From contig JABYQR010000211.1 of NCBI GenBank assembly GCA_022592445.1, forward strand, positions 1 through 64,000: a DNA stretch of 64,000 bases, read 5' to 3'. A program made the translations under genes and the position numbers. A model generated the notes under the pieces. That model was not told the origin of the DNA. It ran no database searches and saw nothing but the letters and a program-made list of their open reading frames with translations. Below, piece by piece: positions 3,374 to 59,839 of the stretch; position 1 is the first letter of the stretch, and each line of letters opens with the position of its first letter. Origin of the DNA: Cytidiella melzeri. Taxonomy: Eukaryota > Basidiomycota > Agaricomycetes > Polyporales > Irpicaceae.

Positions 3374-3871
3374 TGTCAAGAACACAACCAAACTCTATGA
3401 AGAGCGAGGAAGTGACAACAAGGGGGGAGGAACGACAAGCGGACTCGCGTGGACGATGACGACAGGGATAATGATGATGAGGAAAGAGGGAGATACGACG
3501 CCGAGGGAGTAGCTAACAGTGAGCTAAAGACCAGGATATATTAGCACAGTGGTGAGACTAGTACAAGGTGAACGTCACCTAAAGACCAGGAGGTAGAATC
3601 TGAGGTCTTTAGGGAGCTACAGGGTGGGTTTATATACATCTCAAACAAGGACCCCTGGTACCGGGTCTGTACTCCTAACACTGCCGTGGGAACGTATGGT
3701 GTGCTATGGTGCGATGTTCTACAATGTTCCACAATGTTCCAGCACCTTCTATGATCATGTGACCAGTCTGTCACATGCACTTGATCACATGCAGTAGCCA
3801 TGTACCATCGATAAGATAAGATAAAGAAATTAAAAGGAAAAGAAAAGGAAAAAGTGTGCATGTTCGTGACA
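3374..3871 (-). repeat. A2 3' LTR
   Basis: 498 bp copy of the sequence at 10073-10566 with TGTCA/TGACA termini. It is 4 bp longer than the other copy because of small indels near 3480-3520. It is followed in plus coordinates by the polypurine tract complement. Confidence 0.97.
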
Positions 3872-9966: not shown

Positions 9967-10059
9967 TACAACGTACTGGTAAACCGGGGGGACTAAACTT
10001 TTATAAACTTTGGGGAAAGGGAATTTATGCGGTTGCGCGACGTCCAGGCGAGCGTACGG

Positions 10060-10072
10060 AGATTCTACCTAA
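10060..10072 (-). promoter_or_regulatory. A2 primer-binding site, self-priming type
   Basis: Right after the 5' LTR the minus strand reads TT then AGGTAGAATCT. This is the exact reverse complement of the 11 nt AGATTCTACCT at the predicted RNA 5' end within the LTR (10296-10286). It does not begin with TGG, as most tRNA 3'-end primer sites do. Confidence 0.85.
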
Positions 10073-10218
10073 TGTCAAGAACACAACCAAACTCTATGAA
10101 GAGCGAGGAAGTGACGACAAGGGGGGAGGAACGACGAGCGGACTCGCGTGGACGATGACGACAGGGATAATGATGATGAGGAAGAGGGAGAACGACGCGA
10201 GGGAGTAGCTAACATGAG

Positions 10219-10273
10219 CTAAAGACCAGGATATATTAGCACAGTGGTGAGACTAGTACAAGGTGAACGTCAC
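10219..10273 (-). other. A2 leader intron flanked by direct repeat
   Basis: A 55 nt GT-AG segment (starts GTGACG, branch-like TGCTAAT, ends GGTCTTTAG). Its 3' end repeats the 13 nt just upstream of the donor (TCCTGGTCTTTAG at 10286-10274 and 10231-10219). The same layout occurs in B1 and B2. Confidence 0.65.
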
Positions 10274-10285
10274 CTAAAGACCAGG

Positions 10286-10331
10286 AGGTAGAATCTGAGG
10301 TCTTTAGGGAGCTACAGGGTGGGTTTATATA
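10286..10331 (-). promoter_or_regulatory. A2 TATA box and predicted transcript 5' end
   Basis: TATATAAA at 10331-10324 is followed 28 nt later by AGATTCTACCT (10296-10286), the sequence complementary to the primer site. Confidence 0.75.
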
Positions 10332-10566
10332 CATCTCAGACAAGGACCCCTGGTACCGGGTCTGTACTCCTAACACTGCCGTGGGAACGTATGGTGTGCT
10401 ATGGTGCGATGTTCTACAATGTTCCACAATGTTCCAGCACCTTCTATGATCATGTGACCAGTCTGTCACATGCACTTGATCACATGCAGTAGCCATGTAC
10501 CATCGATAAGATAAGATAAAGAAATTAAAAGGAAAAGAAAGGGAAAAAGTGTGCATGTTCGTGACA

Positions 10567-10702
10567 GCACCACTATCAACCAAGACTTGAACTTTGACAA
10601 TTTCGCGATTGTGTGTGATTTTGCCAGCAAATGATATTGAAAGGTCACTAGCCGTTACACGGTTTGCCTTGATCCTAACACACGTCGAGGGTGTAGGATA
10701 AA
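10567..10702 (-). pseudogene. A1 protease N-terminal part, up to the A2 insertion
   Basis: The -1 frame after the A1 slip site reads from about 10706 through TASDLSISFAG to VLVDSGA at 10567, the first half of the aspartic protease active site. The remainder of the motif is at 3373 on the far side of A2. No stop is seen in this stretch. Confidence 0.9.
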
Positions 10703-12604
10703 CTAAAAACCCTCTCTTTCTTCAAGTTCGTCTAAAAACAGGCCTCTCTCTTCAACCGGTAGTCCCGCTACAGCCCTATAGACCATCTCCAAATTCGGCC
10801 GAGTTTCGGTATTCCGTCCTGCCATTCTTGGACCCAGAAGAGGGGCGGCCCTACCCACTCTAAGTTGAGCCACCTCTCCACTTCCTCCTGCGTCACCCCC
10901 AGATCCTCCCGTTTGTGCGCTGCCCAACTTATCCAGTACAAGTCGTTGGCCCAATCTATCATATCCGGGCCTGCGAAGGCCATGGTTCTCCATTCCCTCA
11001 TGCATTCCGCCTCCTGATTGGTCATAAAGACCCCGTTCCTGTGCTCGGCCGGACCCCAGAACTTGCAGGGTCCCCCCTCCATTGTGTCGACAATGTAACT
11101 CTTCGAGAGCTCCAACCGTCTAGCCTGAATCGCCCGCCACGCTGCCACGCGTGCGACGTATAACTCCTGCGGTGTCCTCCTGACCAACCTCCTCCCCTCT
11201 CGCTTCCAAAGTGCTGGCGCCTGATCTTTCTCCTTCAACCATTGTTGCAGCTCGGAGTGCAGGCGGCAGGTTTTGTACTCGAGGTTGCGTGCGTGGGTTT
11301 GGCCTATAGTCGGGATGGAAGGAGAGATTGTTAGCTTTGTGACCAGGCTGATGGCACCTGAAGCATAGTTTGTCTCTGAAGTGACGCTTACGATCTGCTG
11401 CGTTCATAACTCTTGCAGTGGCTTGGTTGTTGTTGGAGTAGGGGGTTCGAGTAGACTGACTTCCCCCCTCACTCTTGCCACGGCCATTATGAGCAGCCAG
11501 ATTGAGCGTCAGGAGTTGTCGGTTTGTTTCTAGCCGGAGCGCTTCTATCAGCATTTCTCCGAGGTTCTCCGGTTGATGGTGTAGATTATGAAGGGCGTTA
11601 AGGAGGCTCCACTTGAGTCCGCGCTTGTACCAAGCCATTACCGCTGTTTTGTCTCGGTTCTCGCCGTATTGTCCCAGCAATACGGAAAAATCATTGTTGT
11701 ATTCTTGGACTGTTCTCGAGCCTTGATTTGCCCTTTCAAGCTTGGCCAATGCTCGTTCTCTGAGTCCTTTGTCCTGGAAGAACATCAACACTTCATCGCA
11801 GAATTCTCTCCAGCATGGGAAATCTTCCATCAGGTATTGTTTCTTCTTCAACATAGCCCATGGTCCAGCCGTTCCTCCATTCATGTAGCTGAGTACGCAA
11901 ACAATCTTGTGTATGGCTAGAGCAAATCGCTTGGGCTGCATTTTGATGTACATCAACATGTTGGTCCACCATTCATCAAACTTCTCGGCCCTGCCATCAA
12001 AGTCTTGGGGATCACGGAGTTTGAGCTTTTCCCACTCGCTTTCAGGTGGTGCTCGGTCATTGGTTGGGGCGTCGGAATATCTGTCAAAGGGGTACTCGGG
12101 GTCGAAAGGGTCTGATTGTTTCCTTTTCTCATGACCTTCCCTATCATAGGGTCGGAAGATGGGTCGATGTGGATCTGGGGCTGAAGAGTTGTCGTCGTCA
12201 TGGGTAGTGAATGGTGTAAATGGCCTTTGTTCTCTTTCAGTCCCTGGTGCTTGGGTATCTTCGGGTTGTATTGCTTCTTGAGGGGTACTCATTGTTGGCT
12301 TTGGTGCTACTGCGAGTTCTTCTAACAATAGTGGTGGTTTGTTACTAGCAGATGGTACTTCTGCTTGTCTCTTGTCGTGTCTTCTGGCTTCTCGCAAGTG
12401 TCGTTCAACTTGGGCAATGTCCACAACTTCAAAGTCTGGGTGTGGCGGTCTTACTGTTTGGTTTGCTAGTTCACGATTGGGACAAATGTCAGCTGTGCAA
12501 TGTTCCCACTTGTTGTCTTGGTCAAGATAGATGTCTCGTTTCTTCTTGTAACAAAGGTGCGGCTTTCCGTAGCAGGGGAGGGATGTTTCAGCTCCCACTG
12601 TCAT
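10703..12604 (-). pseudogene. A1 gag with two compensating frameshifts
   Basis: Starts with MTVGAETS and a Cys/Pro segment ending ADICPNRELANQ, like the CPNR domain of the other elements. A capsid-like region follows (FDGRAEKFDEWWTNMLMYIKMQ, then WREFCDEVLMFFQD). The knuckle CFRCHQPGHKANNL lacks the last cysteine (Leu instead). Near 11250 the frame changes; the next block (11238 to about 10830) is rich in tryptophan and clearly protein-like. A second change near 10830 returns to the first frame, ending LPVEERGLFLDELEEREGF before the slip site. No ORF0 is seen before it. Confidence 0.85.
10706..10712 (-). promoter_or_regulatory. A1 gag/pol -1 frameshift slip site
   Basis: GGGTTTT with zero-frame codons GGT TTT, followed immediately by TAG (10705-10703). 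The -1 frame continues open into the protease. Confidence 0.8.
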
Positions 12605-12741
12605 ATGCTTCTGATGTCTGATGTATCTAATTGCTGCTTCCCATCCAGGGTAAGGCTAGCAAGGATGACAAGGGATTGCAGCAAGACCGCAGTCGTTGCC
12701 AATCGAGTTGTTCTTCTTGGTGCGCGGGGTAGACCCAGAAG

Positions 12742-12753
12742 AGTCTATCCAAA
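12742..12753 (-). promoter_or_regulatory. A1 primer-binding site, self-priming type
   Basis: Minus strand after the LTR: TT then TGGATAGACT, complementary over 10 nt to AGTCTATCCA at the predicted RNA 5' end (12917-12908). The pairing sequence differs from A2, B1 and B2 but the geometry is the same. TGG also fits a tRNA 3'-end site start, so tRNA priming is a competing reading here. Confidence 0.65.
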
Positions 12754-13438
12754 TGTTAAGACCGACTATCGTCAAGGGACAAGTTGTCAGGTCAGAACCC
12801 CTTGGTCTAGCTACACTCAAGGTCTGATGATGGTCTAGGCCGCGCGGTCGCTGTCAAGCACAGTGGCAGACAGATGATGGTTCGATAGAAGGAATATTGA
12901 TACGAAGTGGATAGACTGAGGTTCTAGCCCCCATGTCTGACGGCTATTTATACATGTTGACCTAACTACTTTTGGACCAGTCCGAGGTAGTGGTAGCAAA
13001 TCGGAGAAACAGAAAGGAAGAACAATGCACAGAGAACAGCCACTACTCTGGAAAGCCAATGAGAGAAAAGACCGTCAAGGTGCGGAAACAAGGAACAATC
13101 GAAAGGGGAAACATGAGGCAGAGATCAATGGAGAAGGGGTTGCACCCGAAACAGGGGATAGACGGAGTTGGATCCGAAGGAGTGGTAACGGAGGCATGGA
13201 AAGACCGAGGGTTGAACCAAGGCAATGGTAACCAATCGGAGTTAGGTCCAAGGTTTGAATGGACATCAGAAGGTAACTGATAACATAATAGTCCGTGTTG
13301 AACGGAGGCGATGTGGGTCAGGGAATGATGGAGGAAAGACGAGTTGGATCGTCAAGGCAATTGTAAAGAAGATAACTGGTTATCAAGGTAATCGAAGAAG
13401 TAGAGAAAAATAATAGGGTGTGAAGACCGTTTGTAACA
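12754..13438 (-). repeat. A1 5' LTR
   Basis: Assigned from TGTTA...TAACA inverted ends and the flanking primer site; the second LTR is off the window so the boundaries are inferred. TATAAATA is at 12952-12945 and the predicted RNA 5' end at 12917, 28 nt downstream. No duplicated leader intron like that of A2/B1/B2 is obvious. Confidence 0.7.
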
Positions 13439-14039
13439 CTCTCTAGGAGTGGTATATATACATGTCTGTAACTAGATTACTAATGCTACAGTAATTTCAT
13501 ATGAGTAAGGATTGGTAATGCACAGTCCTGCTTGCTAATACTACTGAATAGAGAATGTAAGCAATGACTGAGCATCCTACATAACTGAATGGTGCTGATT
13601 GAGCCTTTAGTAAGCTCAATACATTTGGTATGTGAAATATGAGTCATGCAGAAGCCTCATGGGACTTCTGTTATTCAGTCATGGAAACTACTGGAACACA
13701 ATGCAATAAGGTGCAAGTATCACATTGTGTGTGGCCATAATGATGATGGAATCACATGCTATGTACTATCTGATCTTATCTATCTACATATTTAATCTAA
13801 ATTGTCCATAGATCTGATCTCTGATGATCAGTGATACAATCTCACTTTGACAACTCCTATAGTGATATACTACTTAGTCTATACAGCCCATATATGTATG
13901 TCTCAGCTAATGTGATGGTTACTACCGGAGTTACCATATACGGCTGCATAATTCCCTTATAAAGACTGTGGAAACTCTGCTACGAAATGTCCTTGTAACA
14001 AGGTGTGGGAAACTACATATTATATTATATAGTTAGAAT
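13439..14039. other. AT-rich spacer without recognisable gene
   Basis: About 600 bp between the A1 LTR and repeat R1. No ORF with coding character, no RNA gene and no match to the other repeats in this window was found by eye. Confidence 0.6.
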
Positions 14040-15725
14040 TCCTGAAGAATGAAGAAGAATTGTTCCAGTGTGCTCCTGCACATTGATGCCTTTTCAGATG
14101 TGACCTTTTTGTCCCCCAAAGTGTGGGAATTTGATGGCAGAATACAGACAGTAACAGTGTCAATAACAAAACGAGGAATACAGCTGATGGCATCACACTG
14201 GCCTTGTTATCAGCCCTTTATAACTTTGTATCAGATCATGTTTGTGATCAAAATGCACGTTTTGATTTTTACCAACTGCATATGTGTACAAATATGTACA
14301 TATAATACACCATTGGATAGCCCTATCTTGTGACAACAACCTTGTACAAATATTCTGTCAATTAAAGTGGAATTGAGCAAGTTATGGCCAGTCTGCTGAA
14401 ACAAGTCATCCAGACTCAAATTCAAACTCCACTCCTGCTGGCAAATGATGTCAAATTCTGGTCAGGTACTTGTGCAGCAGTCTACACAAATTGCTTGCTC
14501 TTTGAACAAGGAATACAATTAGAAGACATGCCACACATAGTATTGCCTTTGAGCAAGAATTACCAGTACTTTGGAAGCTAACTACAAACTCACAACCCCT
14601 ACATTCTTGGACAATGTAAAATTTTGGCTGCATTAGTAGTGAGTACTGTATCTGAGTGTTCCACAAAGTTTCACAACTTTTAGTTTGTTTCTAAGCAGGA
14701 GTTAAAATCAGAACACAGCCTGTGGCAGTTCCAATGGAGGTGAGGCAGTTCAGACATCAACAATACATAGTTTCATCAGCAGCAAGCACTGTGTCGGATT
14801 GTTCCACAAAGTTTCACAACCATTAATTGCTCTCTAAGGAGGAGTTACAAGCAGAACACAGCCTGTAGAAGTTCCAGTGGGGCTGATACAGTTGAAACAT
14901 CAACAAGATGTAGTTGCATCAGCATAGAGCACTGCCTTTGATTCTTCCATACAGTTTCACAACCACCAGTTTCTCCACAAGTAGGAGATACAATCAGAAC
15001 ACAGCCTTTGACAGCTCTAATGGGGATGAGGTAGCGCAGATATCAGCCGGACATGGTTTTATCAGCAGCCAGCGCTGCATTCATTTCTAAGCAAGAGTTA
15101 CAACTGTGGCAGTTCCAATGGGGGTAAGGCAGTTCAGACATCAGCAGTGCATAGTTGCGTTAGCAGCAAGCACTGCATTCGATTGGTCACAAGGTTTCAC
15201 AAACACTTCTCCCTAAGCAGGAGTTACAATCAGAACACAGTCTGTGGCAGTTCCAATAGGGGTGATGCAGCTCAGACCGTGGTTGCATCAGCAGCAACCA
15301 CTGCATCAGATTGTTCCACAAAGTTTCACAACCATTTGTTCCTCTCTAAGGAGGAGTTACAATCACAACACAGCCTGTGGCAGTTCTAGTCGGGCTGATG
15401 CAGTTCAGACATCAACAGGACGTGGTTGTATCACTATAGAGCACTGCCTTTGATTCCTCTATACAGTTTCACAACCACTAGTTGCTCTATAAGCAGGGGT
15501 TACATTCAGAAACCAGCCTGTGGCAGCTCCAATGGGAGTGAGGCAGTGCAGACATCAACAGGACACATGTAACATGTTTCAGCAATTGATCCAATGAGAC
15601 ACCCTCAAGCCCTTCATTCTTGAAGCAAGTAATTCTCTAGAATCAGCAGTGAGCACTGCACAAGATTAATGACAAGATAGATCAAGCTCCTTGCTACCAT
15701 TGGTGACTACCTTCATCAAGGTATG
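14040..15725 (+). repeat. Repeat family R, copy 1, left part (R1)
   Basis: Closely similar to 57700-59839 (R2). Both start with GAAGAATGAAGAAGAATTG, contain a short shared ORF (MKKNCSSVL...) that looks non-coding, then ~141 bp tandem units, then a unique tail. R1 is interrupted at 15721-15725 (GTATG) by copia C and resumes at 35808. Its nature is unknown; no LTR, TIR or transposase is visible. Confidence 0.8.
14640..15560 (+). repeat. Degenerate ~141 bp tandem repeat in R1
   Basis: About seven units, phased by the motif TTCCACAAAGTTTCACAAC or its variants at 14660, 14801, 14943, 15185, 15312 and 15453, with one shortened unit near 15080. Each unit carries CAGGAGTTACAATCAGAACA and CAGCCTGTGGCAGTTCCAAT. 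R2 has only about three units. Confidence 0.85.
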
Positions 15726-15826
15726 TGTCAGATGGTGACCCAACCGAGTCACTTGATTAGGAAAGAGGCGGGAGGCGCGGATTGCCATGACGGGTTTTAG
15801 ACGCCCCACGGACTTACACGAGCAAT

Positions 15827-15869
15827 CCTGGTACAACGTATTCTCTATTGTTGACTACGTTGTACCAGG
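15827..15869 (+). other. Perfect 14 bp stem hairpin in copia C LTR
   Basis: CCTGGTACAACGTA and its exact reverse complement TACGTTGTACCAGG enclose a 15 nt loop. The right LTR keeps it with one mismatch (TATG). It could be an RNA structure in the R/U5 region or a protein site. Confidence 0.8.
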
Positions 15870-15927
15870 TATGTGTTTCTCACTCTGTATTTGTACCATA
15901 ACAATTGATCGTTGACTTTGTTGTATC

Positions 15928-16639
15928 TGTCACAGATTTTCAATGTTTCTACAAGACTTGCCTTACCAGGCAACGGTATTATTGGGAATATTTAAGCGCT
16001 TGTCAAGCGCTTATCCAGCGCTTATCCGGCGTCTATTTTGGCGCTTATCCAGCGCTTATCTGGCGCTTATCAGGCGCCTATTCCGGCGCTTATTCTCAGT
16101 GCCTATCAATTGATGCGCTGATGCGCTTTCTGTCTCTGATGCGCTGATGCGCTCCTTTCCTTATCTGTGTATCACATGATAGAACTCTCTGGAACATTGT
16201 GGAACATGCTGGAACTATGATGTCATAGTATAGAACATTCCATTAGATGATGTCATAGTTCTTAGAACCTTCTGGAAAAGTCTAGCCTTGTCTTAGAACA
16301 AGCTAGAACAAGTCTAGCCTTGGAGCTGGGTCATGGGGTCAATTGCTATTGGTTGATTATTGAAGTGGCACCACTAGGGCATAGGGCATGCTTAGTAAGG
16401 TAGATTACTTCGCTTACTCATGTAGGTATTAGGGGTCTTAAGGTAGTACCTGGGGTCCTCCCCTTCATGTATATATAGAGGCACTCCTGAGGGCATATCC
16501 CCTCAGTCTTATCCACTCTGTTGATAAAGGACTACCTTGTACTCTCCAGTACTTCGCTCACCACACCTCTTACTCTCTATATCTCTATCTCCCCCTCAAG
16601 TTAACCACTTATCTGGTGAGTGTAACCTTAACTGTTACA
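15928..16639 (+). repeat. Solo LTR S1 (Ty3-type) inside copia C LTR
   Basis: 712 bp, TGTCAC...GTTACA, flanked by GTATC duplications (15923-15927, 16640-16644). It is related to S2 at 58123-58775 on the other strand. It has TATATATA at 16470-16477, and 28 nt later AGTCTTATCC (16505-16514), close to the A1 5' end sequence. It is a recombination product of a full element of the same self-priming group. Confidence 0.93.
15994..16100 (+). repeat. ~12 bp GCGCTTATC tandem array in S1
   Basis: About nine imperfect copies of AGCGCTTATCCG-like units. The equivalent part of S2 has about three, so the array length varies within the family. Confidence 0.85.
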
Positions 16640-16659
16640 GTATCAGTACTCGAATAACA

Positions 16660-16674
16660 GGTTATGAGCCCCGG
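16660..16674 (+). promoter_or_regulatory. Copia C primer-binding site, initiator tRNA-Met half
   Basis: GGTTATGAGCCCCGG directly follows the LTR. GGTTATGAGCCC is complementary to the anticodon stem-loop of initiator tRNA-Met (GGGCTCATAACC), the internal priming known from Drosophila copia and yeast Ty5. Confidence 0.8.
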
Positions 16675-16737
16675 CTCCTTGTAACTTACATATCAATTCC
16701 CTCTCCCATTCTTCGTTGAGAACCCCTATTTGCCAAA

Positions 16738-17998
16738 ATGTCAGATTCAGAGAAGTCCACATTGAAAGACTTCAAGTCAAGACTCAAAAGGCTTCACGAC
16801 AATGGAGAAACAAACAATTATGTACAGTGGGCCATGAAATCTCAGATCATTTTTGAAGATCTCGACTTATGGAAATACATCAACGAAGAATCAGTTGAGT
16901 CCACGATTCCAGTCGTCCCAAATCTAAGATCATCAACCAGACTTCTTCCAGGAAACGGAGTCGAAGTCGAGGAAGCTGAAAAGAAGGCTAACAGGTGGTG
17001 GAGGCACAACAGATCCGCACTATCTCTATTGATCCGTGCAATCCCAATGCATAAAGTTCCCCTCATCTTGGGATGTAAGACCGCGAAAGACGCTTGGAAA
17101 GCATTACACGACAAATATATGCCGGTCAATAGTCCAAGAGCAGCTGCACTGCATCAGGCAATCATGGGGTACAAGTGTACCAGTACCCTCGACGTATCCA
17201 AGTGCACGGAGAAGTTCTGAAACATGTACATAGAACTCATCAATCAAGATAAGGACTGCATGCCGGACGCATTCTTTGCCAAGACGTTAGCAAACCTTCT
17301 ACCACTCGACAATTCCTGAATAGCTTTCACACGTACACTCAGGGAAAAATTAGTGAGCGCCAACAAAGATGGGAAACCACTTACATCATTGGCAGTAATA
17401 CAACTTATCAAAGAAGAAGACTAGGCGCAAGGACTTCAGGAACCGGAATATCTGGCCCAAGTCTCCGGTATCAATTTGATCCAAAAGAAAAGACCTGCAC
17501 CCATAGCGGCTGCTGCCTCGGCTCCTCCAGCGAAGCGAGCACACATTGGAGACAAGAATTTGGTTCCTTGCGTAAACCCGGACTGCGAACAACCAATCGG
17601 ACACCTCATCAAAGATTGCTTCGCGTATGGAGGCAGAAAATGCGGGCAGTATACACATTGGTGGAAAGGACTGAAGGATATTCATCTTCCCCCTTCCCAA
17701 AGAGCTCCACGCACATGTGCTCCAGCCACAGGGCAACGACAACTTAATTACCACACTCTACTGACTTCTACCAATGTGGCTCGTGCAGACACTCGAGCCG
17801 GAAATTCTTCAGACCAACCAAATCAATCTGATGATCACGTCGTAGCTGCTTTGACGGATGGACAATTCTTCTCACTCAATACAATTGTTGATCCAATCAG
17901 CAAAGTCAAGTGCAACCAAGCGGTATTCGAAGGGCAAGGCACGAACTTTGAGTGTTTCCACAATTCAGGCGCTAACCGTCACATCTTTGCCGACAAAT
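16738..17998 (+). pseudogene. Copia C gag and protease start
   Basis: Starts MSDSEKSTLKDFKSRLKRL and follows the fungal copia gag pattern (NYVQWAMKSQIIFEDLDLWKYI). A zinc-binding block CVNPDCEQPIGHLIKDCF follows near 17570. The protease region reads NSGANRHIF, with the catalytic Asp replaced by Asn. In-frame stops are at 17218 (TGA), 17318 (TGA) and 17422 (TAG); the rest stays in one frame. B1 is inserted at 17999, shortly after the protease motif. Confidence 0.9.
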
Positions 17999-18508
17999 TG
18001 TCATGGATGGCCTGACTAGCCCTTAATTTTCGCAATTTACCTCTTGTTTTTATCTGTAAAACTCCGGGCTGCAGCTCAGTTGCAACCTTCTCTGCATAAA
18101 CACTCTTTTCACGTCTATTTAGCACCCGTATCACGTGGCTTAGATGCTCCACACGGTTACATTACTTGCTACTACATCACACTGGCATGTGACTTAGCTT
18201 GAGTAAGACCACATGGCTACAAGCACATGGCTCAGCCCATAGCTAGGGTTTGATGTCATAGATACTGTTCACATGGGCTCCTTATTGTTCTTTCCCTATT
18301 GTTCTCTTTATGGAAGGATGTTCTCACAGGTGTGGGAATGGAATACAATAGTTGGTCTCTTTTTAGATAGATTCTCTCACGGGTAGAGTTCTTGGCAAGG
18401 TCTAGACAATAGCTATTGTTCTCCTTTAGGTAGTTCTTTTGTTCTTTGTTCACACGGCTTCTTGCAAAGCCTGCCCTCAACATGGTCTGTGCGCAGGTCC
18501 CTGAAGTC

Positions 18509-18552
18509 TATATATACTGCTGTATGTACGCTCCTAGCCCCCATCTCGACCT
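18509..18552 (+). promoter_or_regulatory. B1 TATA box and predicted transcript 5' end
   Basis: TATATATA at 18509-18516, then 27 nt later ATCTCGACCT (18543-18552), the sequence complementary to the primer site. Confidence 0.78.
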
Positions 18553-18572
18553 CTTGGTCTTTACTGGGCTAG

Positions 18573-18640
18573 GTAAGCAAATCCCCTCTGTACTACATAG
18601 CTGGTAGTCAGAAATACTAACTTGGTCTTTACTGGGCTAG
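18573..18640 (+). other. B1 leader intron flanked by direct repeat
   Basis: A 68 nt GT-AG segment (GTAAGC donor, ACTAAC branch-like site, GGGCTAG end). The 20 nt CTTGGTCTTTACTGGGCTAG occurs just before the donor (18553-18572) and again as the intron 3' end (18621-18640). Confidence 0.72.
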
Positions 18641-18756
18641 CTACATGAATAAGGTTTATAGTTGGTGAGAGCATTGTGCTACACGCCTGCCACCACCTCG
18701 TCGTTGTCGTCCACATCGTGTCCCTAGTTGCTGCGTTGAGCTCCGTCTCCGTGACA

Positions 18757-18768
18757 TTAGGTCGAGAT
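18757..18768 (+). promoter_or_regulatory. B1 primer-binding site, self-priming type
   Basis: TT then AGGTCGAGAT, the exact complement of ATCTCGACCT at 18543-18552. The C/G pair at the fifth position is T/A in B2. Confidence 0.85.
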
Positions 18769-18770
18769 CG

Positions 18771-19100
18771 TTGTGTAACCCCTGGGTTTATATCTCCTCC
18801 CCCACCGTTTACAAAAGTTTATTCCTGTTTGACAAGTACGTCTCCGGTCTCATCATACCGTTGAGCTACCACTTACGTCGACCGTTTGAACCCCCCCTGC
18901 GTTTTCTGGTGCCTAAGGACACGCGCACACGTTTGTCTAAGGACCTCACTACCAACGAGCCTCAGCTCAAGAGGTGCCTCCCGCCTTCCTTCTTTGATGC
19001 TCTCGCTGCCAAGCAAAAGAGCGGTCAACCTCATCGCTGGTCTGACAAAGACCTGGTTGCCGTCGCCGACTACATCTCCAAGAAACTGCCAGTGAAAGGC
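18771..19100 (+). pseudogene. B1 ORF0, first part, cut by B2
   Basis: In-frame from about 18669 with no ATG (the start given is a TTG). It shares VYKSL, the VPKDTRTRLS block and a WSDKDLVAVADYISKK block with A2 ORF0 (VYKSL, VPKD, YTEKDLEAIVSYVSRR). It stops at B2's target site AAGGC and resumes at 26828. Confidence 0.85.
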
Positions 19101-19432
19101 TGACATGGATAGTCCAACAGAGACCGGATTTTTCCAATATTGTCACAAGTTTATAGCCTTAGGCGCCTATCTAGAGCGCTTATTTTCCGGCTAGGAGTGT
19201 TACCGGACCTAACCCTAACCTGGGTCACGTGACATCCTGCCTTATTTATCAATAGTCCAGACCCAAACCCTAGACTCAGTCTGGAGCGGTTCCAGATCAA
19301 CCTAGGCTATTGTTCTATTGTTTCTCTTCCATTGATGGGGATTCCCCAGGGATTCCCCCAGGTCTTATTGTTCTATTGTTCTTATCCTATTGTTCTATTG
19401 TTGTATTGTTCTAGCTCTATTGTTCTACGTAC

Positions 19433-19508
19433 CCTGGTCCTTGACAGTTACTCTGGTCCTTGACAGTTACTCAGGTCCTTGACAGTTACTCCGGTTCTTG
19501 ACAGTTAC
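19433..19508 (+). repeat. ~19 bp tandem array in B2 left LTR
   Basis: Four copies of CTGGTCCTTGACAGTTACT-like units. Absent from the right LTR, where TATTGTTCTATTG joins TTACTCCAGTCCC directly. Confidence 0.9.
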
Positions 19509-19598
19509 CCGGGTTTATTATTGTTCTATTGTTACTCCAGTCCCACAGTTACTCCAGTCCCTAGTGTGGGAACTGGTGCACAGACCATCCAGACACAG

Positions 19599-19642
19599 TA
19601 TATATAGTACCCCTTACCCTCCCTGGTTCTGCATCTTGACCT
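19599..19642 (+). promoter_or_regulatory. B2 TATA box and predicted transcript 5' end
   Basis: TATATATA at 19599-19606, then 27 nt later ATCTTGACCT (19633-19642), complementary to the primer site. Confidence 0.78.
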
Positions 19643-19663
19643 CTTCGTCATTTGCACTGCCAG

Positions 19664-19724
19664 GTGAGTTACTCAATGTAACCTAGTATAAACATGATAT
19701 TAACTTCGTCATTTGCACTGCCAG
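19664..19724 (+). other. B2 leader intron flanked by direct repeat
   Basis: A 61 nt segment: GTGAGT donor, TATTAAC branch-like site, CTGCCAG end. CTTCGTCATTTGCACTGCCAG occurs at 19643-19663 and again at 19704-19724, so the intron end copies the exon end. The right LTR (26625-26685 region) has the same. Confidence 0.75.
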
Positions 19725-19866
19725 TATCCGGCCTTTGAGCCTGCTTGCCTGCTCATCATCGACTTTGACCTCGTTGTCGTCGTTGGAGATCCACTTCCAC
19801 TTCCACTCCCTCCCTTCTCTACCCTTGTTTAGGGTTTAGTAGTATAGCAGCAGTCGCTCCGCGACA

Positions 19867-19878
19867 TTAGGTCAAGAT
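19867..19878 (+). promoter_or_regulatory. B2 primer-binding site, self-priming type
   Basis: TT then AGGTCAAGAT, the exact complement of ATCTTGACCT (19633-19642). Confidence 0.85.
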
Positions 19879-20038
19879 ACCACACAGCTACCGGCACGAC
19901 TGCCCTTAGCTTGGATCAAGTCTTCCTGTCCCCCCAGTTTTAAAAAGTTTATTCCCCCCTACGTTTGAGAGTAAGCCATCGCCGTCCGTCTTGACGTGCT
20001 TGATCGCTGACTCGTTCACTTCCCGTGGTTGATTCTTA

Positions 20039-20797
20039 GTGCCGAAAGAATCCCACTCCCGTTTCACCGCTCGTCCAGATCCTTTGCACAAGGATTTGAA
20101 CCAAGCGCGTCAAGAAGTCAAGATCCATCGCGCCTTGCCCCAGGCCGTGTTTGATCAACTCGACGCAGAGCACGCACGTGGCAAGAGCCACAAGTACACG
20201 GAGAAGGAGCTCAAGGCTATTGCCTCCTACGTTGGTCGCCGTAAACCCAAGGGTTCTGCCCTCACACACAGATTCCCCACTGCAGAGGAGTTTGAGAAAC
20301 TCCGTGCTGAGTCCAAAGAGTTCGCTGCCCGTACCGCACGCGAACGAGCTGAGGCCTTAGCAAGTCTTCCTAAGAAGCCTTCGTTAGCAGAACGCTTCCC
20401 AGCCCGGCCAGCCACCAACCCTGGTGCAGCCCTCATAGCCGCAAAGCCGACTCTCATCGACTTCCAAAAGCACACCCTTGAAGACCTTCAAGGAATCTTC
20501 ACTCCAAAGCTCACCGCCACCCTCCAACGCCTGTCGATTCTACCCACCATCAACAAGTACGAACAGCTTCACGAAGGCACGAGGCGTAACTTTGAGAAAG
20601 AGAAACAGAAGTTAGAAAAGCTTCTGGAGGAGCTACCAACCCGAGCCACTGTCATCACTCAGCGTGAGTGGCAGCTGCTGGATTGGGGTTTAAAGGCAAT
20701 AGGAGAAATCAGTTTCAAGGGTCTAAGAAGGAATTACGAACAAGTGTTCAAAGCTTTAGACAGAGTTTGGTCGGACGAGTACTTCGTATCATTCTAG
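20039..20797 (+). CDS. B2 ORF0, conserved upstream protein
   Basis: 252 codons from a GTG; a TGA lies three codons upstream and there is no in-frame ATG, so the start is unresolved. It aligns with A2 and B1 ORF0 through KYTEKELKAIASYVGRR, ARERAEALASL..KPSLAERF, TLIDFQKHTLEDLQGIFTPKL and WQLLDWGLKAIGEISFKGLRRNY. It ends in TAG (20795-20797), after which the same frame runs on into CPNR-gag. Charged and helical in appearance; function unknown. Confidence 0.78.
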   Translation: MPKESHSRFTARPDPLHKDLNQARQEVKIHRALPQAVFDQLDAEHARGKSHKYTEKELKAIASYVGRRKPKGSALTHRFPTAEEFEKLRAESKEFAARTARERAEALASLPKKPSLAERFPARPATNPGAALIAAKPTLIDFQKHTLEDLQGIFTPKLTATLQRLSILPTINKYEQLHEGTRRNFEKEKQKLEKLLEELPTRATVITQREWQLLDWGLKAIGEISFKGLRRNYEQVFKALDRVWSDEYFVSF

Positions 20798-26192: not shown

Positions 26193-26827
26193 TGACATGG
26201 ATAGTCCAACAGAGACCGGATTTTTCCAATATTGTCACAAGTTTATAGCCTTAGGCGCCTATCTAGAGCGCTTATTTTCCGGCTAGGAGTGTTACCGGAC
26301 CTAACCCTAACCTGGGTCACGTGACATCCTGCCTTATTTATCAATAGTCCAGACCCAAACCCTAGACTCAGTCTGGAGCGGTTCCAGATCAACCTAGGCT
26401 ATTGTTCTATTGTTCCTCTTCCATTGATGGGGATTCCCCAGGGATTCCCCCAGGTCTTATTGTTCTATTGTTCTTATCCTATTGTTCTATTGTTACTCCA
26501 GTCCCACAGTTACTCCAGTCCCTAGTGTGGGAACTGGTGCACAGACCATCCAGACACAGTATATATAGTACCCCTTACCCTCCCTGGTTCTGCATCTTGA
26601 CCTCTTCGTCATTTGCACTGCCAGGTGAGTTACTCAATGTAACCTAGTATAAACATGATATTAACTTCGTCATTTGCACTGCCAGTATCCGGCCTTTGAG
26701 CCTGCTTGCCTGCTCATCATTGACTTTGACCTCGTTGTCGTCGTTGGAGATCCACTTCCACTTCCACTCCCTCCCTTCTCTACCCTTGTTTAGGGTTTAG
26801 TAGTATAGCAGCAGTCGCTCCGCGACA
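26193..26827 (+). repeat. B2 3' LTR
   Basis: 635 bp, TGACAT...GCGACA; lacks the 131 bp tandem-repeat segment of the left copy. Confidence 0.95.
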
Positions 26828-32829: not shown

Positions 32830-33587
32830 TGTCATGGATGGCCTGACTAGCCCTTAATTTTTGCAATCTACCTCTTGTTTTTATCTGTAAAACTCCGGGC
32901 TGCAGCTCAGTTGCAACCTTCTCTGCATAAACACTCTTTTCACGTCTATTTAGCGCCCGTATCACGTGGCTTAGACGCTCCACACGGTCACATTACTTGC
33001 TACTACGTCACACTGGCATGTGACTTAGCTTGAGTAAGACCACATGGCTACAAGCACATGGCTCAGCCCATAGCTAGGGTTTGACGTCATAGATACTGTT
33101 CACATGGGCTCCTTATTGTTCTTTCCCTATTGTTCTCTTTATGGAAGGATGTTCTCACAGGTGTGGGAATGGAATACAATAGTTGGTCTCCTTTTAGATA
33201 GATTCTCTCACGAGTAGAGTTCTTGGCAAGGTCTAGACAATAGCTATTGTTCTCCTTTAGGTAGTTCTTTTGTTCTTCGTTCACACGGCTTCTTGCAAAG
33301 CCTGCCCTCAACATGGTCTGTGCGCAGGTCCCTGAAGTCTATATATACTGCTGCATGTACGCTCCTAGCCCCCATCTCGACCTCTTGGTCTTTACTGGGC
33401 TAGGTAAGCAAATCCCCTCTGTACTACACAGCTGGTAGTCACAATACCAACTTGGTCTTTACTGGGCTAGCAACTTGAAAAAAGTCTGATAGCTGGTGAA
33501 AGCATCGTGCTCTATGCCTGCCACCACCTCCCCGTCGTTTTCCACTTCGTGTCCCTGTTTGTCACGTCAAGCCCCGTCTCCGTGTCA
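32830..33587 (+). repeat. B1 3' LTR
   Basis: 758 bp, equal in length to the 5' copy, with scattered substitutions. Its last bases read GTGTCA instead of GTGACA. It is not followed by the left target duplication. Confidence 0.93.
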
Positions 33588-51811: not shown

Positions 51812-53175
51812 TTGCTAATGATCCCATACGTAGGCCTCATGGAATCATACCACACTACACGATGCGACGGCGGGTTTGACACCTGCCTCGTGGCGTCTGC
51901 AAAATACCACACCGCTACAGGCGACGAGCTCAGCAAGTCGACAGTCCTTCACGCTCTCAAACGCGTCGTTCTGGTGCTCCCGGCACTATGCGTCCAGATA
52001 GCGGGTGACTACGCCACTGGCCCGTTTCATCTCGTTCGATTACCTTTTGTCAACCTCAACGACGTGCTCGAATATCACAAGTATCCTGGCAAGACCTTGC
52101 AAGAGGTCTATACGACGGAACTGCACACGAGTCTACCAAGGGACGTAGAGAAACCTCTTTGGCGCGTTATCGTTCACGACAACACAGTGGTTTTTGCCTG
52201 GTCACATTCCATTGGAGACGGCCAAAGCGGACATGCGCTTCATCACGCGTTGGTCTCTGCTCTTAACCACGAAGATGTCTCGAAAGCACCAGAGGAATCT
52301 TTTGTCGATGTTCCTCTCGAGCTTACTCTCCACCAACTACAGAGGAGCGCACCAACACCGCCGTGTCATGGAAGACTTTCTTCCAAGCTCTGTACGATAC
52401 GTTCACCCCAGCATCCTGGCAGCGTGTCTACTCGCATGGACAGCCACCCTGTCATCTCTGTCAACGACATCAGTAACGAGGTGCGTCTGCGGAGCTTCCA
52501 GCAGAGCACGCAAAGCGACTTGTGAATTTGTGTCGCCAGAACGGCTGCACTCTCACATCATTCCTGCACACTCTGGCTTTGTGCGTCCTATCTCATTTGA
52601 TCAAAACATATGAAGACGGATTTACAACGACCGCAAAAGTACAAGACGTTCTCGACGGTTGTCCCGGTATCACTTCGACGGTTCACGGGCACGTCTGCTT
52701 TGGACATATGCGACCAGGTATCAGGCTACCACTCATTCCCGCCTATTATTCGTGACGTTCAATACCCACTCACCAAAGCGACGTTCCCGTGGAAGATGGC
52801 AGCAGACTTCAAGACGTCGCTCCAATCAGGTCTCGAGGACACACGACAGGTCGTCGGGACGATCAAGTATATGTACTCCCTAGGTATAGCCACGAAGTAT
52901 TTTGCAAACCAGTTGGGGAAGAAGCGCGGGAGGACGTTCGAGTTGTCCAACATTGGGGTCATGCCGAAAGTCAGTGATGGACGATGGCAGATTGACGAGG
53001 TGTGTTTCGGGCAGAACAACGCCGTGTGCGGTCAGATCAACATGAACGTCGCGGGCTCACCCTCGGGGACAGTCAGTTCTCGTATACGTGGGGAACGGGC
53101 GTGGTTGACAAGCCGTTCATGGAGGAGTTTATCGCGCAGATGCATTTTGCTATGGCGTCTGCACTTGAAGCTTGA
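51812..53175 (+). pseudogene. Alcohol O-acetyltransferase-like gene, frameshifted
   Basis: Opens LMESYHTTRCDGGFDTCLVASAKY, and the active-site HxxxD appears as WSHSIGDGQSGHALHHAL (near 52210), typical of fungal alcohol acetyltransferase/condensation-like enzymes that acylate small alcohols. Later parts are CRQNGCTLTSFLHTLALCVLSHLI, FSTVVPVSLRRF, FELSNIGVM near 52940, and a C-terminus TWGTGVVDKPFMEEFI in another frame after about 53070. At least four frame changes (near 52340, 52500, 52640, 53070) not clearly explained by introns suggest decay. Confidence 0.8.
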
Positions 53176-58122: not shown

Positions 58123-58775
58123 TGTAACAGTAAGGTTACTACTCACCAGGTAAGTTGATAAACTTGGGGGAGATAGTGTGAGATAGAGAGTAAGAGGTGT
58201 GGTGAGCAAAGTACTGGTGGGTACTGAGTAGTCCTAGTTCAACAGAGTGGATAAGACTGAGGGGATATGCCCTCAGGAGTGCCTCTATATATACAAGAAG
58301 GGGAGGACCCCAGGTACTACCCTAAGACCCCTAATACCTACATGAGTAAGCGAAGTAATCTACCTTACTAAGCATGCCCTATGCCCTAGTGGTGCCACTT
58401 CAATAATCAACCAATAGCAATTGTCCCCATGACCTGACCCCATGACCCAGTCCCAAGGCTAGACTTGTTCTAGCTTGTTCTAAGCCAAGGCTAGACTTTT
58501 CCAGAAGGTTCTAAGAACTATGACATCATCTAATGGAATGCTCTATACTATGACATCATAGTTCCAGCATGTTCCACAAGGTTCCAGAGAGTTCTATCAT
58601 GTGATACACAGATAAGAAAAGGAGCGCATCAGAGACAGGAGGCGCATCAGCGCATCAATTGATAGGCACTGAGAATAAGCGCCGGAATAAGCGCCAGATA
58701 AGCGCTTAAATATATTTCCAATAATACCGTTGCCTGGTAAGGCAAGTCTTGTAGAAACATTGAAAATCTGTGACA
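58123..58775 (-). repeat. Solo LTR S2 (Ty3-type) inside R2
   Basis: 653 bp reverse-oriented relative of S1 (TGTAAC...TGTGACA on plus), flanked by AGGTT duplications (58118-58122, 58776-58780). Confidence 0.93.
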
Positions 58776-58959
58776 AGGTTGATGTGCAGCAATCTACAGA
58801 CATTGCTTGCTCCCTGAACAAGGAATACAATGAGAAGACATGCCACACATAGTGTTGGCTCTGAGCAAGAATTACCAGTACTTTTGAAGCTAACTACCAC
58901 ACCCAATCCCTACATTCTTGGACAATGTAAATTTGTGGCTGCATTAGTAGTGAGTACTG

Positions 58960-59360
58960 TATCTGATTGTTCCACAAAGTTTAACAACTGTTAGTTGCTT
59001 TCTAAGCAGGAGTTACAATCAGAACACAGCCTGTGGCAGTTCCAATGGGGGTGATGCAGCTCAGACATCAACAGGACATGGTTGCATCAGCCACAACCAC
59101 TGTGTCGGAATGTTTCACAACCATGAGTTGCTCTCTAAGGAGGAATTAACATTAGAACATAGCCTGTGGCAGTTCTAATGGGGCTGAAGCAGTTCAGATA
59201 TCAACAAAATGTGGTTTCATCAGCATAAAGCACTGCCTTTCATTCTTCCATACAGTTTCACAACCACCAGTTGCTCTATAAGCAGGAGTTACAATTAGTA
59301 CACAGCCTGTGGCAGCTCCAATGGGGGTGAGGCAGTGCAGACATCAACAGGACACATGTA
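58960..59360 (+). repeat. ~141 bp tandem units in R2
   Basis: About three units corresponding to the seven in R1. Confidence 0.8.
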
Positions 59361-59839
59361 ACATGTTCTACCAATTGATCTAATGAGACACCCTACAGCC
59401 CTTCATTCTTGAAGCAAGTAATTTTCTATAATCAGCAGTGAACACTGCACAAGATTAATGACAAGATAGATGAAGCCCCTTGCTACCATTGGTGACTACC
59501 CTCATCAATGTAGGGCTCCTTTCCCTGCAATCAAACTACTCAATTGTTGTACAGTCACTTTATCCCGGATCAAGCTGCCTATCAAAGGTGTCACCAATAG
59601 CAAATGCCCGTAACACAGTCAATATTCATGACCAGATGGCTTGGCAAGATCCTTACCAGGAATACAGTTGTTGACTGAGGTTGTTTTTGGTAACAAAGTC
59701 ACAGGTGCAATTGACTATTTCATGCTATGTGATTGATTCAATTTGCTATCAATCACATAATCACTTGTAACCCTGCTCCTGCAGTTTACCAGATTTTATC
59801 TAGATTATTCAGCATAGTTCAACACCATCAAGAAGAAGA

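Follow-up and report, generated by a model that had tools for sequence, protein, structure and literature searches.

Sequence evidence for self-priming in Ty3 chromoviruses of Cytidiella melzeri and for a putative intron with a duplicated end in their long terminal repeats

Tf1 of fission yeast primes reverse transcription with 11 nt of its own RNA. Reverse transcription normally erases introns, so that an intron inside a long terminal repeat (LTR) would be puzzling; in retroviruses of the human T-lymphotropic virus/bovine leukemia virus (HTLV/BLV) type, a splice donor lies in the R region of the LTR with its acceptor far downstream, and the tandem duplication of a segment that contains AGGT is another source of introns. 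Here we analyzed a window of 64,000 nt from the basidiomycete Cytidiella melzeri (contig JABYQR010000211.1, assembly GCA_022592445.1, positions 1 to 64,000), in which the LTR elements A2, B1 and B2 are Ty3 chromoviruses and a further element, A1, is represented by its 5′ LTR. These elements very probably start minus-strand DNA in the manner of Tf1, using the 10-11 nt at the 5′ end of their own RNA as primer, and the R region of B1, B2 and A2 likely holds a small spliceosomal intron, with one copy of a duplicated segment (copy1) before it and a second (copy2) at its end. We assign a probability of roughly 0.55 to the reading as a whole, in which self-priming and the R intron are combined with a replication cycle that restores the intron.

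As in the HTLV/BLV type, a splice signal would lie within R, but here the whole short putative intron would sit inside the LTR, and hence in both LTRs. As in introns born from AGGT duplications, a GT..AG intron is flanked by a direct repeat, but here the copies vary between families, mostly match within them and begin at the primer boundary. Self-priming is published for Tf1, Tf2, Tj1, sushi-type elements and most plant Tcn1 elements, according to passages of PMC6317226, PMC4600332 and PMC7175516; it is thus an already known Tf1/sushi mechanism, and the covariation described below is a confirmation of it in new families. Like those chromoviruses (Tf2, Tj1, the sushi group and Tcn1), the elements have a primer near the RNA 5′ end that complements the primer binding site (PBS), the Ty3 domain order and a chromodomain; they differ in a complementarity of 10-12 nt and, in B1, B2 and A2, in the intron-like unit with a duplicated end that follows the primer. 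A cryptic intron of Tf2 is also a splicing event in a self-primed element, but it is tied to small interfering RNA silencing, and the passage concerned gives it no place in the element and names no repeat (PMC7175516). The Tcn2-5 elements of Cryptococcus have been proposed to use a novel kind of priming (PMC7175516). In the literature on LTR introns and on spliced or self-primed elements, as represented by listings and the openings of abstracts, we did not find this arrangement described; the words “intron-containing LTR” are used in PMC4256276.

The four elements share a common plan: a TATA box, a primer that starts 34-35 nt past the first T of that box, R-U5, an LTR end in ACA, the dinucleotide TT and the PBS. 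A first-pass annotation of the window had reported exact primer/PBS pairs of 10-11 nt in B1, B2, A2 and A1, with the PBS 2 nt after the LTR, and we found all four so placed. Its interval for them, 12,742 to 19,878, contains the pairs of B1, B2 and A1, while that of A2 lies outside it, and the spacing it gave as 27-28 nt after the TATA box is indeed constant but comes to 26-27 nt past the 8-nt box by hand count. The primers begin with A after a pyrimidine, exact pairing breaks off at both ends, and the primer:PBS helix appears in the minimum-energy fold as well as the centroid of each of the four leaders when folding starts at the primer's first base. Both the TATA spacing and the pyrimidine-A start fit the predicted position of the primer at the RNA 5′ end. 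As in the Tf1/sushi group, A2, B1 and B2 encode protease, reverse transcriptase (RT), RNase H and an integrase with a chromodomain and SH3_Tf2-1, the latter two above Pfam cut-offs; the integrase of A1 was not seen in this domain scan, which covered A1, A2, B1 and B2.

As a control for chance, each stretch from TATA box to LTR end was shuffled 20,000 times (first-order Markov), and complementarity starting 0-4 nt after the LTR was scored. The observed length was reached by 16 shuffles for B1, 49 for B2, 9 for A2 and 36 for A1, and by 1-49 across all six families, which include two further ones, C and D. When every primer was compared with every PBS, the exact complement to the string near the predicted RNA 5′ end measured 10 nt in B1, B2 and A1, 11 nt in A2 and D and 12 nt in C, and non-cognate combinations gave at most 7 nt; A1 and A2 thus keep their pairing despite differing sequences, as had been proposed. 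Shuffles and matrix together led us to reject a chance origin. Priming by a tRNA, with an incidental self match, would suit the TGG with which the PBS of A1 and C begins, as tRNA-type sites do, as well as internal tRNA matches of 9 nt (T-arm) for the D PBS and 7 nt for that of A2, but the best match of a tRNA 3′ end, counted from CCA, is at most 4 nt, compared with 10-12 nt for the self match, among 50 of the 55 tRNAs found. None of these 50 tRNAs therefore has a 3′ end that fits a PBS better than the element's own string does, the outcome on which the annotation had staked its proposal, and we rejected tRNA priming as extremely improbable. The same complementarity might instead serve packaging or translation as a stem in the leader, with another agent priming, and the stem does appear in all four predicted leader folds; we regard this as very improbable given that one strand occupies precisely the place of a PBS, 2 nt past the LTR end, that no tRNA matches comparably and that the group is known to self-prime (passages of PMC6317226 and PMC4600332). 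Position, exactness, predicted RNA pairing, the lack of a comparable tRNA match and the chromodomain and SH3_Tf2-1 of A2, B1 and B2 thus uphold the tRNA-free self-priming that had been suggested.

The covariation itself carries less weight than had been claimed. The C:G to T:A change between B1 and B2, taken as compensatory, is present but concerns a single CpG site and is weak evidence; L124 and L134 show a like change on one side only, and we discarded it as a strong argument. Nor are the four pairs independent, since the families are related. Copying of the primer can also rewrite the PBS of a self-primed element, so that primer/PBS covariation may even be automatic.

Among further copies, an exact pair is present in 14 of 18 Ty3 5′ pieces, the others having one mismatch (L072), two mismatches (L083), an end before the PBS (L076) or nothing (L071). 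A second set of five Ty3 pieces gave two exact pairs, two pieces with none and one primer without PBS (L110), so that a convincing pair was not found in L071, L108 and L109. Several of 20 B1 pieces had been picked as diverged copies; the primer is present in 18 of them, and the six that reach the PBS comprise one exact pair and five with one or two mismatches, copies that we read as having drifted after insertion. Exact background pairs of at least 9 nt away from LTR ends occur once each in L083, L085, L107 (10 nt), L108, L110 and L111 and twice in L114. A Ty1/copia control, thin at three pieces in which LTR ends were not located, showed no exact pair beside an LTR-like end.

The first-pass annotation overlooked a duplicated segment that resembles an intron and begins at the edge of the primer. 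In B1, B2 and A2, copy1 (20, 21 and 12 nt, respectively) abuts the primer without a gap, its start coinciding with the boundary exactly in B1 and B2 and within 1 nt in A2, and ends in AG; it is followed by GTAAGC in B1, GTGAGT in B2 and GTGACG in A2. An exact copy2, again ending in AG, begins 68, 61 and 55 nt past the start of copy1; TACTAA (B1) or ATTAA (B2) precedes it, and in A2 CTAAT lies a few bases further upstream. The stretch between the copies thus reads as a GT..AG intron that ends in copy2 and has a candidate branch site, and its 55-68 nt are a usual length for fungal introns. The two copies form the longest exact direct repeat after the primer in B1 (20 nt), B2 (21 nt) and A2 (13 nt), while the longest in A1, C and D measure 9, 8 and 6-7 nt and are located elsewhere. 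Differences between families recur in both copies (about seven between B1 and B2 copy1, including an indel, by eye), and the copies are identical in 24 of 31 B1 LTRs (15 of the 19 not picked by an exact copy1), 4 of 6 B2 LTRs and 4 of 4 A2 LTRs. In the 31 B1 LTRs, the intron measures 66-68 nt, CTAAC is kept in 27 and TAG in 29, and GTAAGC in all 31, the last partly by selection, as the intron-bearing class was set by GTAA and 12 LTRs were picked by GTAAG. B1 diversity is 0.035 in copy2, 0.157 in the intron before it and 0.241 in exon 2 after it.

LTRs that lack the intron are present in all three families. They account for 89 of 809 exact B1 matches (next base A or C; the other 720 bear the intron), for 5 among the first 100 listed of 341 B2 matches and for 9 among the first 100 listed of 291 A2 matches; exact matching gave 0 tandem expansions for the B1 unit. 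Three of 25 unselected B1 LTRs with a readable junction (L111, L115, L123) miss exactly the stretch from GT through copy2, and they carry three exon 2 types. We then paired LTRs on the same strand 6.0-7.6 kb apart, a distance of our choosing, in contigs 1-65 for B1 and among the matches listed for A2. None of the 34 pairs is mixed: ten B1 pairs have the intron and two lack it, and the corresponding A2 numbers are 19 and three. The absence of mixed pairs indicates that the intron state is inherited through replication. A later genomic deletion in single LTRs could draw on direct repeats of 12-21 nt, which can recombine, but with 0/34 pairs mixed and 5/34 lacking the intron in both LTRs we rejected it as the main source of loss, and as an explanation it is very improbable.

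Linkage was assessed in 31 of 39 B1 LTRs or pieces, leaving out those without primer (L129, L133), cut (L076), without intron (L111, L115, L123) or with too little exon 2 (L121, L122). Mean r2 was 0.090 between U3 and intron (null 0.035, p 0.001), 0.047 between intron and exon 2 (null 0.038, p 0.17) and 0.059 between U3 and exon 2 (p 0.075), and the bootstrap difference between the first two was 0.040 (0.001 to 0.088). The four-gamete test failed for 38/56 U3-intron, 141/168 intron-exon 2 and 37/48 U3-exon 2 site pairs, and inside blocks for 2/6 in U3, 45/91 in the intron and 23/66 in exon 2. Allele classes in 2x2 tables, chosen after the data were seen, gave p 2e-5 for U3 by intron, p 1.0 for intron by exon 2 and p 0.73 for U3 by exon 2. 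Mantel tests on 19 B1 LTRs, before the other 12 were added, gave weak results: r 0.20 (p 0.044) for U3-intron, r 0.01 (p 0.42) for intron-exon 2 and r −0.02 (p 0.57) for U3-exon 2. A single intron type is paired with four exon 2 types. In B1, intron alleles are therefore linked to promoter alleles, with no detectable linkage to those downstream.

Based on this anatomy, we propose, at somewhat less than even odds, that the element uses its own spliced RNA for replication and yet keeps the intron: the duplicated end of the exon, delimited by the self-primer cut, would steer strong-stop DNA to the unspliced 3′ LTR, so that the intron is rebuilt and the copies are homogenized in every cycle. For the intron-restoring cycle as such, in which we infer transcription start, splicing, cleavage and transfer, we put the chances at one in two. 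The 5′ intron would be removed from the RNA by splicing, the primer would be cleaved at the primer/copy1 boundary and anneal to the PBS, and RT would copy U5, exon 2 and copy1 and halt at the cut. The identity of copy1 and copy2 would then let the strong-stop DNA anneal to the unspliced 3′ R over copy2 and exon 2, with extension running through intron, copy1, primer and U3. Each cycle would restore the intron and overwrite copy2 from copy1, and an intron-lacking copy would arise when the landing site of the strong-stop DNA is copy1 or a 3′ R that has itself been spliced. Such a route would account for a repeat that starts at the primer and ends at splice sites, for the sameness of the copies and for the survival and occasional loss of the intron. 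An unspliced template would yield strong-stop DNA with intron and exon 2 on one molecule, and any new combinations would then form upstream of the intron; B1 shows the reverse tendency.

A rival reading is ordinary Tf1/sushi self-priming of an element whose R region holds a tandem repeat that is not spliced, with RT slippage sometimes deleting a unit and recombination keeping the copies alike. Splicing is not required for it to explain the pairs and the LTRs that lack an intron, the deletion product being identical. It would need coincidence to supply a well-placed 5′ splice site, CTAAC and AG, it meets 89 losses against 0 expansions of the exact B1 sequence, although slippage may favor deletion, and it leaves the linkage break at copy2 without a place; we consider it unlikely, at a little over one chance in four. 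Several points count against the spliced, intron-restoring cycle that we prefer. Direct-repeat deletion during reverse transcription yields the same product as splicing, restoration would require a poly(A) site beyond copy2, and A1, C and D are predicted to self-prime without the repeat. The copies differ in 7/31 B1 and 2/6 B2 LTRs, which we read as later mutation. The linkage contrast is modest (bootstrap fraction at or below zero 0.024) and draws on 4, 14 and 12 informative sites; even inside blocks linkage is partial, with 45/91 intron site pairs failing the four-gamete test. The whole B1 leader folds no better than shuffles (z 0.35), and the plant Tcn1-type element SM-Tcn1 showed neither tRNA- nor self-priming, according to passages of PMC2864245.

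The features are collected in Table 1. The insertions are nested, A2 inside A1 and B2 inside B1, and both inner elements have 5-bp target site duplications (TSDs); the 3′ end of A1 lies beyond the contig. The outer flanks of B1, when compared, showed no matching TSD, and its two LTRs, whose agreement falls from 98% as far as copy1 to 92% in the part of the intron ahead of copy2 and 77% beyond copy2, may come from different insertions. Among 120 listed relatives of the B2 RT, those with a named organism come from five mushrooms and two frogs; viral contigs scanned with an RT alignment yielded no relatives, and no Rfam family reached its gathering score within 10000-20500.

Table 1. Positions of LTRs, primers, binding sites, repeat copies and putative introns in the window
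Feature	Positions	Strand	Remarks
B1 self-primer ATCTCGACCT	18543..18552	+	predicted RNA 5′ end; exact PBS complement; TATA start +34
B1 PBS AGGTCGAGAT	18759..18768	+	
B2 self-primer ATCTTGACCT	19633..19642	+	
B2 PBS AGGTCAAGAT	19869..19878	+	
A2 self-primer AGATTCTACCT	10286..10296	-	
A2 PBS AGGTAGAATCT	10060..10070	-	
A1 self-primer AGTCTATCCA	12908..12917	-	no copy1/copy2-type repeat after it
A1 PBS TGGATAGACT	12742..12751	-	
Family C solo LTR	15928..16639	+	fifth family predicted to self-prime; TSD GTATC
Family C primer string CAGTCTTATCCA	16504..16515	+	family C PBS seen in locus L082
B1 copy1, 20 nt	18553..18572	+	exact repeat at 18621-18640
B1 copy2	18621..18640	+	
B1 putative LTR intron GTAAGC..TACTAAC..CTAG, 68 nt	18573..18640	+	ends in copy2
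B2 copy1, 21 nt	19643..19663	+	exact repeat at 19704-19724
B2 putative LTR intron, 61 nt	19664..19724	+	ends in copy2
A2 copy1, 12 nt	10274..10285	-	exact repeat at 10219-10230; window copies extend 1 nt into primer
A2 putative LTR intron, 55 nt	10219..10273	-	ends in copy2
B1 5′ LTR	17999..18756	+	match to 3′ LTR, ends read from sequence
B1 3′ LTR	32830..33587	+	no matching target duplication seen
B2 5′ LTR	19101..19866	+	B2 inside B1; TSD AAGGC
B2 3′ LTR	26193..26827	+	635 nt vs 766 in B2 5′ LTR
A2 5′ LTR	10073..10566	-	A2 inside A1; TSD GCACC
A2 3′ LTR	3374..3871	-	
A1 5′ LTR	12754..13438	-	outer end inferred from TGTTACA, no second LTR compared

Inverted repeats flank the primers of A2 (CTAAAGACC/GGTCTTTAG, 10274-10307, minus strand) and B1 (CCTAGCCC/GGGCTAGG, 18533-18573, plus strand), and part of them may lie upstream of the RNA start. 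The family D primer AAGTTCGAGCT (L075, L078) resembles a tRNA T-arm, and just upstream of it a near-copy of the PBS forms an inverted repeat. A second family C LTR lies at 58123-58775, and the solo LTR of Table 1 sits within an apparent Ty1/copia LTR. The post-LTR sequence of a copia-type element, GGTTATGAGCCCC at 16660-16672, has a best tRNA match of 7 nt and looks like what we take to be a half-tRNA-iMet site, not confirmed with the tRNAs compared. Tandem units of about 143 nt are common to 14588-15620 and 58899-59400, and a host gene at 51833-53172 encodes an alcohol acetyltransferase-like protein (100% match to a Cytidiella melzeri protein over 58% of the query).

These results suggest that primer/PBS covariation in self-primed elements can reflect templated copying, with no need for repeated compensatory selection. 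If the proposed cycle is correct, self-priming, splicing and strand transfer would be joined in one design, which would offer a route for the gain, retention or loss of introns, and its footprint, by which to search for it in other fungi, would be a repeat delimited by primer cut and splice sites.

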